34,910 nucleotides of DNA from Gammaproteobacteria bacterium. GTDB taxonomy: Bacteria > Pseudomonadota > Gammaproteobacteria > Arenicellales > CAJQKF01. Below are positions 2 to 23,200 of the stretch, one piece after another. The notes under the pieces were generated by a model. The model was not told the origin of the DNA, ran no database searches, and was given only the letters and a program-made list of their open reading frames with translations. The position numbers and the translations under genes are program-made. The stretch covers positions 1 through 34,910 of the forward strand of contig JAUIDF010000006.1 of NCBI GenBank assembly GCA_030429125.1, read 5' to 3'. Each line of letters opens with the position of its first letter. The stretch's first letter is position 1.

Positions 2-595
2 GGCGACGAGGGGCCGTTCGCGGAGGTCACCGGCTACTACGCGAAGGTGGCGCCGCGGCCCGTGGTCCACGTGCGCGCCGTGCACGTGCGACCCGGCGCG
101 GTGTTCCAGACCATCCTGTCAGGCGTGGAGGTGTGGAACTCCGTTGGCCTGCTCGGCGAGGCCAATGTGCTGGCGACACTTCAGCGCCAGGTACCGGGAG
201 TGAAGGACGTGTACTTCAGTCACGGCGGCTGCGGCTTCTACCACTGCGTCGTGCAACTCGCACAGAAACGCGCGGGTTGGGCCAAGCAGGCCATCATGGC
301 CACGTTCGCCGCCTTTCCGCCGCTGAAGATCGTCACCGTGGTGGACGACGACGTGGACATCAGGAACCCGATGGACGTCGAGTGGGCCATGGCCACGCGC
401 CTCGACCCGGCGAAGGGCGTCTTGACCATCGACAACGTCTTCGGCCACGGACTCAATCCGGGCTTTCCGAATTACCTCGGCTCGAAGATCGGCTTCGACT
501 GCTGCCGCCCATTCCCCTTCACGTACGAGTACGAGCGCGCGAAGTACAAGGACGTGGACGTCGGCACCTACGACATCGTTGAAGGGAAAAGCTGA
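2..595 (+). CDS. UbiD-family prenyl-FMN-dependent decarboxylase, C-terminal part
   Basis: The frame is open from the window edge, so the start codon and N-terminal part lie outside; about 197 residues are visible. UbiD enzymes reversibly decarboxylate aromatic or alpha,beta-unsaturated carboxylic acids with prenylated FMN. The visible part begins with a GDEGPFAEVTGYY stretch, matching the family's EGPFGE-TGYY motif, and continues with VVDDDVDIRNPMDVEWAMATR, the conserved C-terminal acidic segment preceding a WA-TR motif. The prenyl-FMN synthase gene ubiX lies 2.8 kb downstream on the same strand, which supports the cofactor assignment. The family is well recognised, but substrate (4-hydroxybenzoate-type, phenolic or other acid) cannot be decided from this fragment, so no gene symbol is given. 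Confidence 0.9.
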   Translation, partial: GDEGPFAEVTGYYAKVAPRPVVHVRAVHVRPGAVFQTILSGVEVWNSVGLLGEANVLATLQRQVPGVKDVYFSHGGCGFYHCVVQLAQKRAGWAKQAIMATFAAFPPLKIVTVVDDDVDIRNPMDVEWAMATRLDPAKGVLTIDNVFGHGLNPGFPNYLGSKIGFDCCRPFPFTYEYERAKYKDVDVGTYDIVEGKS

Positions 596-615: not shown

Positions 616-642
616 CGCGGTCTGAAATCTCGTCAGACCGTG
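616..642 (+). other. Hairpin just after the UbiD-family stop codon
   Basis: An 8-bp perfect stem (618-625 with 633-640, sequence CGGTCTGA and its complement) encloses a 7-base loop. One G-T and one C-G pair extend it outward to 616/642. It starts 21 bases after the decarboxylase stop, where a terminator or 3'-end-stabilising hairpin would be expected. No T-run follows, so it is not a canonical intrinsic terminator. It could equally be part of the degenerate edge of the repeat array that follows. Confidence 0.45.
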
Positions 643-1340
643 GGGCGAATGAGCCGGAGCCGTAATCCGACGAAGAACGAGCGATGGTTTCGTTCGATGC
701 CGCGTCGGATTACGCCGCCGCTACGCGGGGTCTAATCCGACCTACGGTGCCCCGATTTGAAACCACGGCAACGTGTAGGTCGGATTAGCCGAAGGCGTAA
801 TCCGACGAGGAACGGGCGGTGGTTTCGTTTGACGCCTACGGTGCCCCGAAGTGAAACCACGGCGACTTGTAGGTCGGATTAGGCGAAGCCGTAATCCGAC
901 GAGGAACGGGCGGTGGCCTCGCTCAACGCCGCGTCGGATTACGTCCCCGCTGGCGCGGGGTCTAATCCGACCTACGGTGCGACGGTGCCCCGATTTGAAA
1001 CCACGGCAACTTGTAGGTCGGATTAGGCGCAGCCGTAATCCGACGAGGAACGGGCGGTGGTTTCGTTCGATGCCGCGTCGGATTACGTCCCCGCTAGCGC
1101 GGGGTCTAATCCGACCTACGGTGCGACGGTGCCCCGATTCGAAACCACGGCGACTTGTAGGTCGGATTAGGCGCAGCCGTAATCCGACGAGGAACGGGCG
1201 GTGGCCTCGTTCGATGCCGCGTCGGATTACGTCCCCGCTGGCGCGGGGTCTAATCCGACCTACGGTGCCCCGGACTAAAACCGCGGTAACTTGTAGGTCG
1301 GATTAGGCGCAGCCGTAATCCGACGACGGACGGGCGGTGC
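641..1340. repeat. Tandem array of REP-like palindromic repeats (period 144/136 bp)
   Basis: Near-identical units begin at 869, 1013, 1157 and 1293 (spacing 144, 144, 136). A shortened 94-bp unit begins at 775, and a more diverged, 5'-truncated unit spans about 641-774. Each full unit carries two hairpins. The first (873-881 with 892-900) has stem GTCGGATTA. The second (933-941 with 963-971) has the same stem in opposite order plus an inner CCCCGC/GCGGGG stem (945-950 with 955-960). The unit ends form a 13-bp inverted repeat, 869-881 against 963-975. The unit at 775 has lost the second hairpin. Units at 869 and 1013 share an extra 8-base GACGGTGC that the others lack. The array fills the gap between the convergent decarboxylase and trpB2 genes. 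The layout is that of REP/BIME elements moved by RAYT-type transposases, but no such transposase gene is in the window. Confidence 0.9.
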
Positions 1341-1366: not shown

Positions 1367-2734
1367 TCAACCCGTTGCCACCGACGGCAGGCCCGCCAGC
1401 GCCATGGCCAGTTCGGCCTCGTCGTACTGCTGGTCGACGATCTTGCCGTCGAAGAAGTCGATATAGGCCTGCATGTCGAAGTGGCCGTGGCCGCACAGGT
1501 TGAACAGGATGGCCTCGGACTTGCCCTCCTCCTTGCAGCGCAGCGCCTCGTCGATGGCTCCCTTCACCGCGTGGGTCGCCTCGGGCGCCGGCACGATGCC
1601 CTCGGCACGGGCGAACTCGACACCGGCCTCGAAGCACGCCACCTGGTGGTAGGCGCGCGGCTCGACGTAGCCGAGATCGACGACGTGGCTGACCAGCGGC
1701 GCCATGCCATGGTAGCGCAGTCCGCCGGCGTGAAAGCCCGACGGCACGAACTGCGAGCCGAGGGTGTGCATCTTCACCAGCGGCGTCATCTGCGCGGTGT
1801 CGCCGAAGTCGTAGGCGAACCTGCCCCGGGTCAGTGTCGGGCAGGCGGCGGGCTCGACGGCGACGATGCGGGTCGAACCGCCGTCGCGCAGGTTGCGGCC
1901 GAGATACGGAAAGGCAATGCCGGCGAAGTTGCTGCCGCCGCCGGTGCAGCCGACGATGACGTCGGGGTAGTCGTCGGCCATCTCCATCTGCAGCACCGAC
2001 TCCTCGCCGAGCACCGTCTGGTGCATGAGCACGTGATTGAGCACGCTGCCGAGGGCGTACTTGGTGTCGTCCGCCATGGCCGCCTGCTCCACCGCCTCGC
2101 TGATGGCGATGCCGAGGCTGCCGGTGCTGTCCGGGTGCTTCTCGAGGATGGCGCGCCCGGCCTGGGTTTCGTCGCTCGGGCTGGCGACGCAGGTGGCGCC
2201 ATAGGTCTGCATCATGGCCTTGCGGTAGGGCTTTTGCTGGAAGCTCACCTTGACCATGAACACCTTGACCTCGATGCCGAACACGTGGCCGGCATAGGCC
2301 AGCGACGAGCCCCACTGGCCCGCGCCCGTTTCCGTCGTGAGGCGCTTGATCCCGGCCGCCTTGTTGTAGAAGGCCTGGGGCACCGCGGTATTCGGCTTGT
2401 GGCTGCCGCTGGGGCTGACGCCCTCGTACTTGTAGTAGATCCGCGCCGGCGTATCCAGCGCCTTCTCCAGGCGTCGCGCGCGGAACAGCGGCGTGCAGCG
2501 CCACTGGCGGTAGACCTCGCGCACCGGCTCCGGAATGTCGATGTGGCGCTCCGTCGACACCTCCTGGACGATGAGGTCCATGGGGAACAGGGGCGCGAGA
2601 TCGTCCGGCCCGATGGGCTGGCCGGTGCCCGGATGAAGCACCGGCGACAGCGGCGTCGGCAGGTCGGCCTGGATGTTGTACCACTGCTTCGGAATGGCCG
2701 ATTCATCGAGAAGGTACTTGATGCTGTCGCTCAT
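1367..2734 (-). CDS. trpB2: TrpB2-type tryptophan synthase beta chain
   Basis: A PLP-dependent enzyme of 455 residues that condenses indole (or possibly another nucleophile) with serine or phosphoserine to give tryptophan. The PLP lysine is K113 in the motif GSHKPNTA, and the cofactor phosphate loop is CTGGGSNF. Length and the GSHK-N form fit the TrpB2 subfamily rather than the canonical TrpB1 that partners TrpA. The open frame runs on to 3178, but ATG at 2734 is chosen: a GGAG lies 11 bases upstream, the residues before it do not resemble the family, and a GTG at 2746 would overlap that ribosome site. There is no trpA or other trp gene nearby, so it stands alone, as TrpB2 genes often do. It is divergent from the flavoprotein gene at 2896. 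Confidence 0.9.
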   Translation of the reverse strand: MSDSIKYLLDESAIPKQWYNIQADLPTPLSPVLHPGTGQPIGPDDLAPLFPMDLIVQEVSTERHIDIPEPVREVYRQWRCTPLFRARRLEKALDTPARIYYKYEGVSPSGSHKPNTAVPQAFYNKAAGIKRLTTETGAGQWGSSLAYAGHVFGIEVKVFMVKVSFQQKPYRKAMMQTYGATCVASPSDETQAGRAILEKHPDSTGSLGIAISEAVEQAAMADDTKYALGSVLNHVLMHQTVLGEESVLQMEMADDYPDVIVGCTGGGSNFAGIAFPYLGRNLRDGGSTRIVAVEPAACPTLTRGRFAYDFGDTAQMTPLVKMHTLGSQFVPSGFHAGGLRYHGMAPLVSHVVDLGYVEPRAYHQVACFEAGVEFARAEGIVPAPEATHAVKGAIDEALRCKEEGKSEAILFNLCGHGHFDMQAYIDFFDGKIVDQQYDEAELAMALAGLPSVATG

Positions 2735-2833
2735 CGGTTTTGTCACTCCGGTTTTTTTGGGCCCGTCGGGCGCGAGAATCGGTCGGGAGGCAGGATTCTC
2801 CCCGATCCGGCCGCGATATGCCAACATGCGACC

Positions 2834-2871
2834 CGGGCGTCGCGCCGGCCCCGAGGAAGGCGCGACGCCCG
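2834..2871. promoter_or_regulatory. 13-bp inverted repeat in the trpB2/flavoprotein divergent region
   Basis: A perfect 13-bp stem, CGGGCGTCGCGCC at 2834-2846 pairing with 2859-2871, surrounds a 12-base loop. It ends 24 bases before the ATG at 2896 and lies 100 bases upstream of the trpB2 start. It could be an operator for a dimeric regulator of both genes, or an RNA hairpin in the leader of the plus-strand gene. There is no T-run after it, so intrinsic termination is unlikely. Function is inference; the symmetry is directly visible. Confidence 0.55.
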
Positions 2872-2895
2872 ACAACCGACTTCGAGGACCCGTGA

Positions 2896-3327
2896 ATGAC
2901 CCCTTGGGAATGGCTCGACCAGCAGAACGTGATGACCCTTGCCACCACCGGCCCCGACGGCCCGTGGGCGGCCGCGGTGTACTTCGCGCGTGACGATCGA
3001 CGACTGGTTTTCCTGTCCTCGGCCCGCTCGCGTCACGCCGTCGACCTGTCGCTGGACCCGCGATGCGCGGCCACCGTGAACGGCGACGCGCCTGACTGGT
3101 CGAGTATTCGCGGTGTCCAGATCGCCGGTCGCGCGCGGCAGCTCGACCGCGACGAGGCCGACGTCGCCCGCGCGGCATGGTTTGTCCGGTTCGCCGACAT
3201 GATGCGGGCCGCCGACCCGGTGCTGGGTGCGGCGCTCGAACGCATCGACTGGTTCGAACTGGTGCCCGAGCGCTTGCTGTTCATCGACAACTCGAAGGGG
3301 CTCGGTTACCGGGAGAACGTCCTGTAA
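2896..3327 (+). CDS. Pyridoxamine 5'-phosphate oxidase-like flavin-binding protein
   Basis: A 143-residue protein with the split-barrel fold pattern of the PNPOx-like superfamily: an N-terminal MTLATTGPDGPWAAAVYF strand pair, VFLSSARSRHA, a central VQIAGRARQL segment and a C-terminal DWFELVPERLLFIDNSKGLG ending. Small proteins of this type bind FMN or F420/heme and are mostly uncharacterised, so no reaction is assigned. It is too short for the biosynthetic oxidase PdxH, and the PdxH C-terminal signature is not seen. GAGGA lies about 8 bases before the ATG. ubiX follows 80 bases downstream on the same strand, so the two may share a transcript, which would fit a link to flavin chemistry; that link is inference. 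Confidence 0.8.
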   Translation: MTPWEWLDQQNVMTLATTGPDGPWAAAVYFARDDRRLVFLSSARSRHAVDLSLDPRCAATVNGDAPDWSSIRGVQIAGRARQLDRDEADVARAAWFVRFADMMRAADPVLGAALERIDWFELVPERLLFIDNSKGLGYRENVL

Positions 3328-9882: not shown

Positions 9883-10702
9883 GCCGACGCCGTCAGGGTG
9901 GCTTGCCGCCATGCTCGAGAAACTGACCTTCGTGATGCTGGTGATGCTTGTCGGGCGGTGGGACATCGCCGGCACGTGGACCCGAACGGCGCTGTTGGTC
10001 GTTACGGTGACGGCGGCGTGCATCTCGTGGTGGCGTCATGTCAATCGGCCATGGCGCGGACCATCCCGAGATATTCGCGCGCGCGATCGCGCGGTTCGAT
10101 TCGGTACCCTGGCGATCTACCTGGCGGCGGCCGGCTACCTTCTCGTCACCATGGTGCCCAGCGCGGAAATCCACGACATCGCCCTACCGCTCGATGACGG
10201 ACGGTTCGTCGTCGCCCAGGGCGGCGGCAACGCGCTGCTCAATCACCACAACGGGCACCGGGCACAGCATCATGCCGTCGACATCACGGCGGTCAACGCC
10301 GCCGGCTTCCGCGCCGCCGGCATCCTGCCTGCCGACCCCCGCGACTACGCGATATACGGAGCCGACGTCGTCAGTCCGTGCGACGGAACCGTACTGCAGG
10401 TCGAGGACACGCATGCGGACCTCTCACCGCCGAATCGGGACCGGGACAATCCCGCCGGAAACCGTATCGTGATCGACTGCGACGGGCTGGAAGTGGAGAT
10501 GGCGCACTTGCGCCAGCATAGTATCCGGGTCTCGGCGGCCGACACCGTCGTACTCGGCCAGGCACTGGCCGAAGTGGACAACTCGGGGAACACCAGCGAG
10601 CCGCACTTGCACGTGCACGCCACCGATCCACGCACCGGCGCCGGCATCGCCCTGACCTTCGACGGCGACTACCCGGTTCGCAACCGCGTGTATCGGCGGT
10701 AA
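9800..10702 (+). CDS. Membrane-anchored M23-family metallopeptidase
   Basis: A 300-residue protein with about four hydrophobic segments in the first 125 residues (the first is IIVVLILIGVCTMLPLWFA), then a C-terminal LytM/M23 peptidase domain. Zinc-site motifs are visible: HHAVDI for the H-x3-D site, HLRQHS, and SEPHLHVHA for the HxH site. A GNTSEPHLH context is typical of M23. Family members cut peptide cross-links of peptidoglycan or related peptides in the periplasm. ATG 9800 is chosen because the membrane segments begin there; the frame upstream to 9602 is the shadow of the remnant ORF. A multi-pass rather than a single-span anchor is less common in this family. Confidence 0.85.
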   Translation: MIIVVLILIGVCTMLPLWFAWTIVRLDEPTPSGWLAAMLEKLTFVMLVMLVGRWDIAGTWTRTALLVVTVTAACISWWRHVNRPWRGPSRDIRARDRAVRFGTLAIYLAAAGYLLVTMVPSAEIHDIALPLDDGRFVVAQGGGNALLNHHNGHRAQHHAVDITAVNAAGFRAAGILPADPRDYAIYGADVVSPCDGTVLQVEDTHADLSPPNRDRDNPAGNRIVIDCDGLEVEMAHLRQHSIRVSAADTVVLGQALAEVDNSGNTSEPHLHVHATDPRTGAGIALTFDGDYPVRNRVYRR

Positions 10703-22870: not shown

Positions 22871-23200
22871 TGTGATGGCGGGCACCGGGGAGAAGATCCA
22901 GAACGTCGCGACGACTCGTCGCCGTGCCTATTACATCACCGACGCATGGCGATCGCATGGCGATCGCGTGGATTGGCCGTGGCGCCGGCCGTCCCCCCGG
23001 CAACCGCTTTCGCGGGACGGGACACGCGTCCGGGCCAGGGCCCGTTCAAACCCTTCTGAACGGGCGGGTCTCGGGACTGTTGTTCGTATCCGGCGAAACG
23101 CTTCGAGGCGCCATCGCGTTTCCAGGGCGACGGGATGCAGCGCCATCGAACACCAGGAATGGACCGGAAGACCGCCGCCGGCGGACGGCGTGAACAGGTT
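22871..23200. other. Gene-free interval upstream of the alpha-2-macroglobulin gene
   Basis: No credible gene. It holds two overlapping copies of GCATGGCGATCGC at 22944-22956 and 22955-22967 (period 11), and a 9-bp stem with an 8-base loop at 23040-23065 (GCCCGTTCA and its complement). The stem lies 135 bases past the SDR stop and has no T-run in either direction, so it is at best a weak terminator. No convincing promoter boxes were found for the macroglobulin gene. Confidence 0.55.

Follow-up and report, generated by a model that had tools for sequence, protein, structure and literature searches.

Ten REP palindromes, of which nine are complete and one is a half, form an array at positions 645–1340 of the window, by which we mean the whole stretch of 34,910 nucleotides analysed here. 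The array lies in the gap between two convergent genes, one of the UbiD family (plus strand, ending at 595) and one for a PLP enzyme (minus strand, 3′ end at 1367). Short-loop (y) and long-loop (z) hairpins, GTAG-tagged and in opposite orientation, alternate along the array (Table 1). The hairpin positions thereby confirm the two opposed hairpins per unit described in an earlier note on this DNA. Tandem repetition, also claimed there, agrees with the periods called by TRF, one of 144 (3.5 copies, 91% matches, 838–1339) and a second of 94 (741–916). The proposed unit length of 144 bp holds for two units only, since the array consists of units of 134 (with one 5′ hairpin half lost), 94, 144, 144 and 136 bases, followed by a 48-base tail. 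Likewise, the 13-bp inverted repeat GTAGGTCGGATTA/TAATCCGACCTAC is present as reported, but it closes the 107-bp y-z pair and not the 144-bp unit, which also holds the z-to-y spacer. Rfam at its gathering threshold gave no match in the window, and neither a T-run terminator nor a sigma-70-like promoter was found in 500–1450. TRF additionally called two short tandem repeats elsewhere in the window, at 10297–10325 and 22943–22971, with units of 15 bp and 11 bp.

Table 1. Features of the array and its flanking genes (positions in the window).
Feature	Position	Strand	Details
Upstream flank, UbiD-family decarboxylase, C-terminal part	2–595	+	Contig starts inside the gene; Pfam PF20696 (E 1.6e-31), PF01977; 3′ end faces the array
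Degenerate 5′-most y hairpin, left array boundary	645–671	+	Only the 3′ arm TAATCCGAC (663–671) remains, without a matching GTCGGATTA 5′ arm
z hairpin 1 with CTAC tag	704–745	−	38 nt, 704–741
y hairpin 2	775–806	+	GTAG + 28 nt
z-less spacer	807–868	+	y-z linker fused directly to z-y spacer at GACGCC/TACGGTGCC (831–845); z hairpin missing
y hairpin 3	869–900	+	
y-to-z linker (HH spacer)	901–932	+	32 bp
z hairpin 3 with CTAC tag	933–975	−	39 nt
z-to-y spacer (TT spacer)	972–1016	+	45-bp form, which has the 8 additional bases; count takes in the CTAC and GTAG tags
Complete y-linker-z REPIN/BIME dimer	1013–1119	+	107 bp; 13-bp inverted repeat at the ends; predicted to fold as one long hairpin
Next complete dimer	1157–1263	+	y 1157–1188, z 1221–1263
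Last y hairpin and partial linker, right array boundary	1293–1340	+	
Downstream flank, PLP-dependent enzyme family, PALP domain	1367–3178	−	ORF start uncertain; Pfam PF00291 (E 1.8e-37); 3′ end faces the array

The y hairpin is 28 nt long and consists of the GTCGGATTA stem around a 10-nt inner part, with the GTAG tag on its 5′ side. The z hairpin (38–39 nt) shares this stem, contains an extra GC-rich inner stem and carries a 3′ CTAC tag, which is GTAG on the other strand. GTAG was found at 82 of 85 y hairpins and CTAC at 47 of 63 z hairpins, one of the remaining z hairpins being cut by a contig end. Pairing is conserved through sequence change: one inner pair of y is C-G in 48, G-C in 34 and unpaired in 3 of 85 hairpins, duplicates included (Fisher p 3e-20, which is nominal because the copies are related), and compensatory changes occur in 6 of 16 pairs of the 39-nt z and in 2 of 16 of the 38-nt form. 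The 107-nt y-z dimer is predicted to fold as one long hairpin, with z-scores of −7.45 as DNA and −7.26 as RNA. In the dimer consensus, 1868 of 1900 cells hold standard pairs, the structure having been predicted from those same sequences. We also considered whether the two spacers (GGTGGTTTC/GAAACCAC) pair with each other, but the tabulated combinations show no obvious covariation and we do not claim such pairing.

The repeat family in the bin and in other genomes

The window is contig C63 of a bin (G000) with 388 contigs and 3.69 Mb, 76% complete and with 5% contamination. The exact hairpin pattern occurs 125 times in this bin, in line with the earlier expectation of further genomic copies, and all 125 are contained in the stretches taken around the matches together with the window. 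A reversed control pattern gave 0 hits, and the exact arrangement y-N32-z was matched three times in the window versus 0 in 100 shuffles; together these comparisons exclude chance. With one mismatch per arm allowed, the count rises to 150 hairpins, 132 of which sit in 23 arrays of three or more. Within the arrays, y and z alternate in 102 of 109 neighbouring pairs. Family hairpins lie on at least 30 different contigs, and single y hairpins also occur alone. The linker from y to z measures 32 bp in all 51 cases. The z-to-y spacer is variable (25–63 bp, tags included), the most frequent forms being 45 bp (25 of 54) and 37 bp (9 of 54), which differ by the 8-bp step GGTGCGAC. A subfamily of arrays at L048 (C296) and L050 (C259) departs from the rest in its z-to-y spacer, here another sequence of 32 bp such as CTACCGGGCGCCGCGG.TTGAA.TTTCCGTAG, and in the inner stem of z; it seems to be a separately expanded lineage. 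At or beside single y hairpins at L058 (C56), L060 (C326) and L062 (C280) there is another REP class, related to the first, whose stems are GTCGGGTTA / CCAACCCGACCTAC and which may be an older generation of the family.

Among the 60 nearest genomes, own genome included, both the 252-bp unit and hairpins of a relaxed GTAG pattern were found in the own genome only. In 398 genomes drawn from the phylum, the GTAGGTCGGATTA hairpin was present in three, namely the own genome (89), G233 (102) and G197 (6). REP copy number varies strongly within one genus, with 102 hairpins in G233, 6 in G197 and 0 in G129. Named genomes contain these REPs in pairs in at least 111 stretches, and the matches listed include Janthinobacterium, Marinobacter, Marinimicrobium and Aerophototrophica; some loci in other genomes have as many as 7 of them clustered together, most of these in the same orientation. 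None of the 127 other-genome loci scanned contains the linkers of the own genome. Exact y-N32-z was not found in collections of genome contigs and viral contigs, nor did blastn of 869–1340 match a plasmid, in collections that may omit the own and near genomes. The patchy distribution suggests recent acquisition or expansion of the family.

Searches of the bin at family and at protein level found no cognate RAYT; as the bin is 76% complete, this absence is weak evidence. A RAYT with the same stem at its flanks, as the earlier note envisaged, is thus missing from the bin as assembled but present in G233, a genome of the same class, where a RAYT of 173 aa (L087:1462–1983) has GTAGGTCGGATTA REPs on both sides. 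Relatives of the G233 RAYT occur in 208 of 369 genomes of the class, a count that takes in weak matches such as the gene on C25 described below. GTAG hairpins with varied stems lie near the gene in 19 of 30 such loci that were read, and in three of these the stem is GTCGGATTA. Among G233, G129 and G197, a RAYT with these REPs was found only in G233.

The sole Y1_Tnp gene of the bin lies on C25 (L009, 1207–1869, minus strand) and is the only match of the G233 RAYT in the bin, with 32% identity over part of its length. It is bounded by inverted GGGGACAGTATACTTA-type repeats, with a further direct copy 43 bp away, which are unrelated to GTAG REPs, and no GTCGGATTA was found within the 3.3 kb read around it. 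We therefore rejected it as the cognate RAYT. With its flanking inverted repeats it resembles the TIR-flanked RAYT class described in excerpts of PMC3733652, and not the GTAG REPs.

Divergence, genomic position and alternative explanations

Units in the window are 84–94% identical in pairwise comparison, which is less than the near identity previously stated. Across the family, units differ by 9.0% within one array and by 13.7% between arrays (0 of 2000 label permutations as low), yet only 14 of 32 units have their nearest relative within their own array (chance expectation 5.7%). The history thus requires local duplication as well as movement or exchange between loci. The longer spacer with 8 additional bases is indeed restricted to two units of the window, 869–1012 and 1013–1156. 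Since the 45-bp spacer is the commonest form in the genome, these shared bases do not date a local duplication, and the recent 144-bp duplication deduced from them does not follow. The copy at 775 had correctly been described as lacking its second hairpin, z being absent from 775–868. Its junction, GACGCC/TACGGTGCC, is not unique to this copy, as it recurs on C305 and, with one base changed, on C38; z hairpins have been lost several times in the family, and the shared junction reflects either recurrent loss or one copied variant.

Greater likeness within arrays than between them, steps in spacer length and lost hairpins would also be expected if the family did not originate from a mobile element but arose solely by local, satellite-like amplification, slippage having duplicated one sequence that loci then came to share through gene conversion. 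We consider such an origin improbable, given the spread of family hairpins over at least 30 contigs and the presence of same-stem GTAG REPs in unrelated genera and at the flanks of a RAYT. Still less credit is due to repeated insertion of a MITE of a non-RAYT DNA transposon with 13-bp terminal inverted repeats: although an inverted repeat of this length closes the 107-bp dimer and copies are many, y hairpins occur singly, each half of the dimer is itself a GTAG-tagged palindrome, and the same tagged hairpin flanks the RAYT gene of G233 and is paired in many other genomes.

The position of the arrays relative to genes was analysed with gene calls from a home-made ORF scorer. No predicted gene spans any of the 36 hairpin clusters (60-bp edge tolerance). 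Of the 8 arrays whose flanking genes both lie within 600 bp, 5 have a convergent setting, compared with 13 of 83 array-free gaps (p 0.007); adding L039, where the gene on the left is 613 bp distant, makes this 6 of 9. Gene ends facing an array are 3′ ends in 28 of 32 cases (15 of 18 for interior arrays, 13 of 14 for those at contig ends), compared with 80 of 166 in array-free gaps. REPs in general likewise tend to lie at gene 3′ ends, according to the available text of PMC3733652.

Fourteen of the 23 arrays stop within 70 bp of a contig end; the repeats are therefore a probable reason why this assembly is in part so fragmented. These contig ends and the 5% contamination could point to an assembly artefact, a concern raised earlier, or to mis-binned repeat contigs, but we give this explanation almost no weight, because nine arrays, that of the window and eight others, are assembled through into both flanks, the copies in the window differ by 6–16% and the family is present on dozens of contigs of one bin.

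Relation to known REP systems and proposed mechanism

We conclude, with a probability of roughly 85%, that the array is a BIME-2-like tandem cluster of GTAG REP palindromes, in which y/z heterodimers of the REPIN type are repeated together with their spacers between convergent 3′ ends. Counting against this reading are the lack of a RAYT of this type in the incomplete bin and the failure to find the linker sequence in the 127 loci of other genomes. The palindromes are REPs of the GTAG superfamily, being tagged, present in many intergenic copies and marked by compensatory change. Tandem alternation of two opposed REP types with conserved spacers is the organization of BIME-2, and an inverted REP doublet with the predicted fold of one long hairpin has the structure of a REPIN. 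The REP/BIME identity proposed in the earlier note is thus supported by the tagged palindromes, their inverted heterodimers, their location between convergent genes and their many copies genome-wide.

The match to published BIME-2 and tandem REPIN clusters indicates that arrays of this kind are already known. Alternating Y and Z2 units form the BIME-2 of Escherichia coli (PMC2817692), which resembles the present array in having two GTAG palindrome types, inverted and in tandem; the stem sequence and the spacers are different. E. coli also has a known RAYT with units of this type on its flanks. In Pseudomonas fluorescens SBW25, inverted REP doublets are repeated in tandem with flanking sequence as they are here, and the accessible parts of PMC3116915 describe 16 tandem REPIN clusters, one cluster of more than 700 bp, and arrays of alternating GI and GIII REPs with up to 12 members. 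According to the same parts, most REPINs of SBW25 are single and RAYTs are present, whereas here arrays predominate and no cognate RAYT was found. Tandem BIMEs or REPINs are likewise described in portions of PMC3733652 and PMC8266576, so that tandem arrays are not as unusual among REP/BIME elements, said to be mostly scattered, as had been supposed.

GTAG REP families 1–24, as far as the available text of PMC3733652 describes them, share with the present family the GTAG tag, the 9-bp stem, the HH dimer with a conserved spacer and the TT dimer with a variable spacer, as well as heterodimers of different loop length, a location at gene 3′ ends and tandem reiteration of dimer clusters. The string GGTCGGATTA is absent from that text, the consensus list being placed in Figure 1 of the paper. 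A literature search with the stem string gave no REP-related titles among the matches listed; consensus strings often stand in figures. G233 has the identical REP stem and tag, with a RAYT between REPs. In the few loci of G233 that were read, the REPs form pairs and not long runs in which y and z alternate, and their linkers differ.

A RAYT (TnpA-REP, a Y1/HUH single-strand transposase) would have spread these units. In the proposed mechanism, this enzyme copies, or used to copy, both single REPs and REP dimers in trans, and it would recognise the GTAG tag and the hairpin on single-stranded DNA. For other REPs it has been established biochemically that TnpA-REP cleaves its cognate REPs when the DNA is single-stranded, as stated in excerpts of PMC8266576. 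Where a site had come to hold two or more units, tandem copies could be gained or lost by recombination or by replication slippage across the hairpins. Such gain and loss would account for the tandem repetition of units together with spacers, for the missing z hairpins and for spacer lengths that change in steps of 8 bp, and the unit steps suggest that the arrays grew by recombination or slippage. Sites at gene 3′ ends would be tolerated or favoured. Once transcribed, the hairpins may shield the 3′ ends, or gyrase or other proteins may bind to the DNA, and a 3′-end or topological role is plausible from the position of the arrays.

A more specific scenario, which we regard as possible but rather doubtful, is that the REP/RAYT system came from a distant lineage and that its RAYT has since disappeared or acts from some other place, while the repeats persist and multiply mainly as 3′-end tandem arrays through host recombination. 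If this were true, arrays rather than single REPINs would be the unit of inheritance. The present results add a strongly array-forming GTAG REP family that is confined to one species among the nearest relatives compared. Less usual features are the degree of array dominance and the missing cognate transposase in a bin that is incomplete. Arrays of this sort lend themselves to studying how tandem BIMEs expand and contract.
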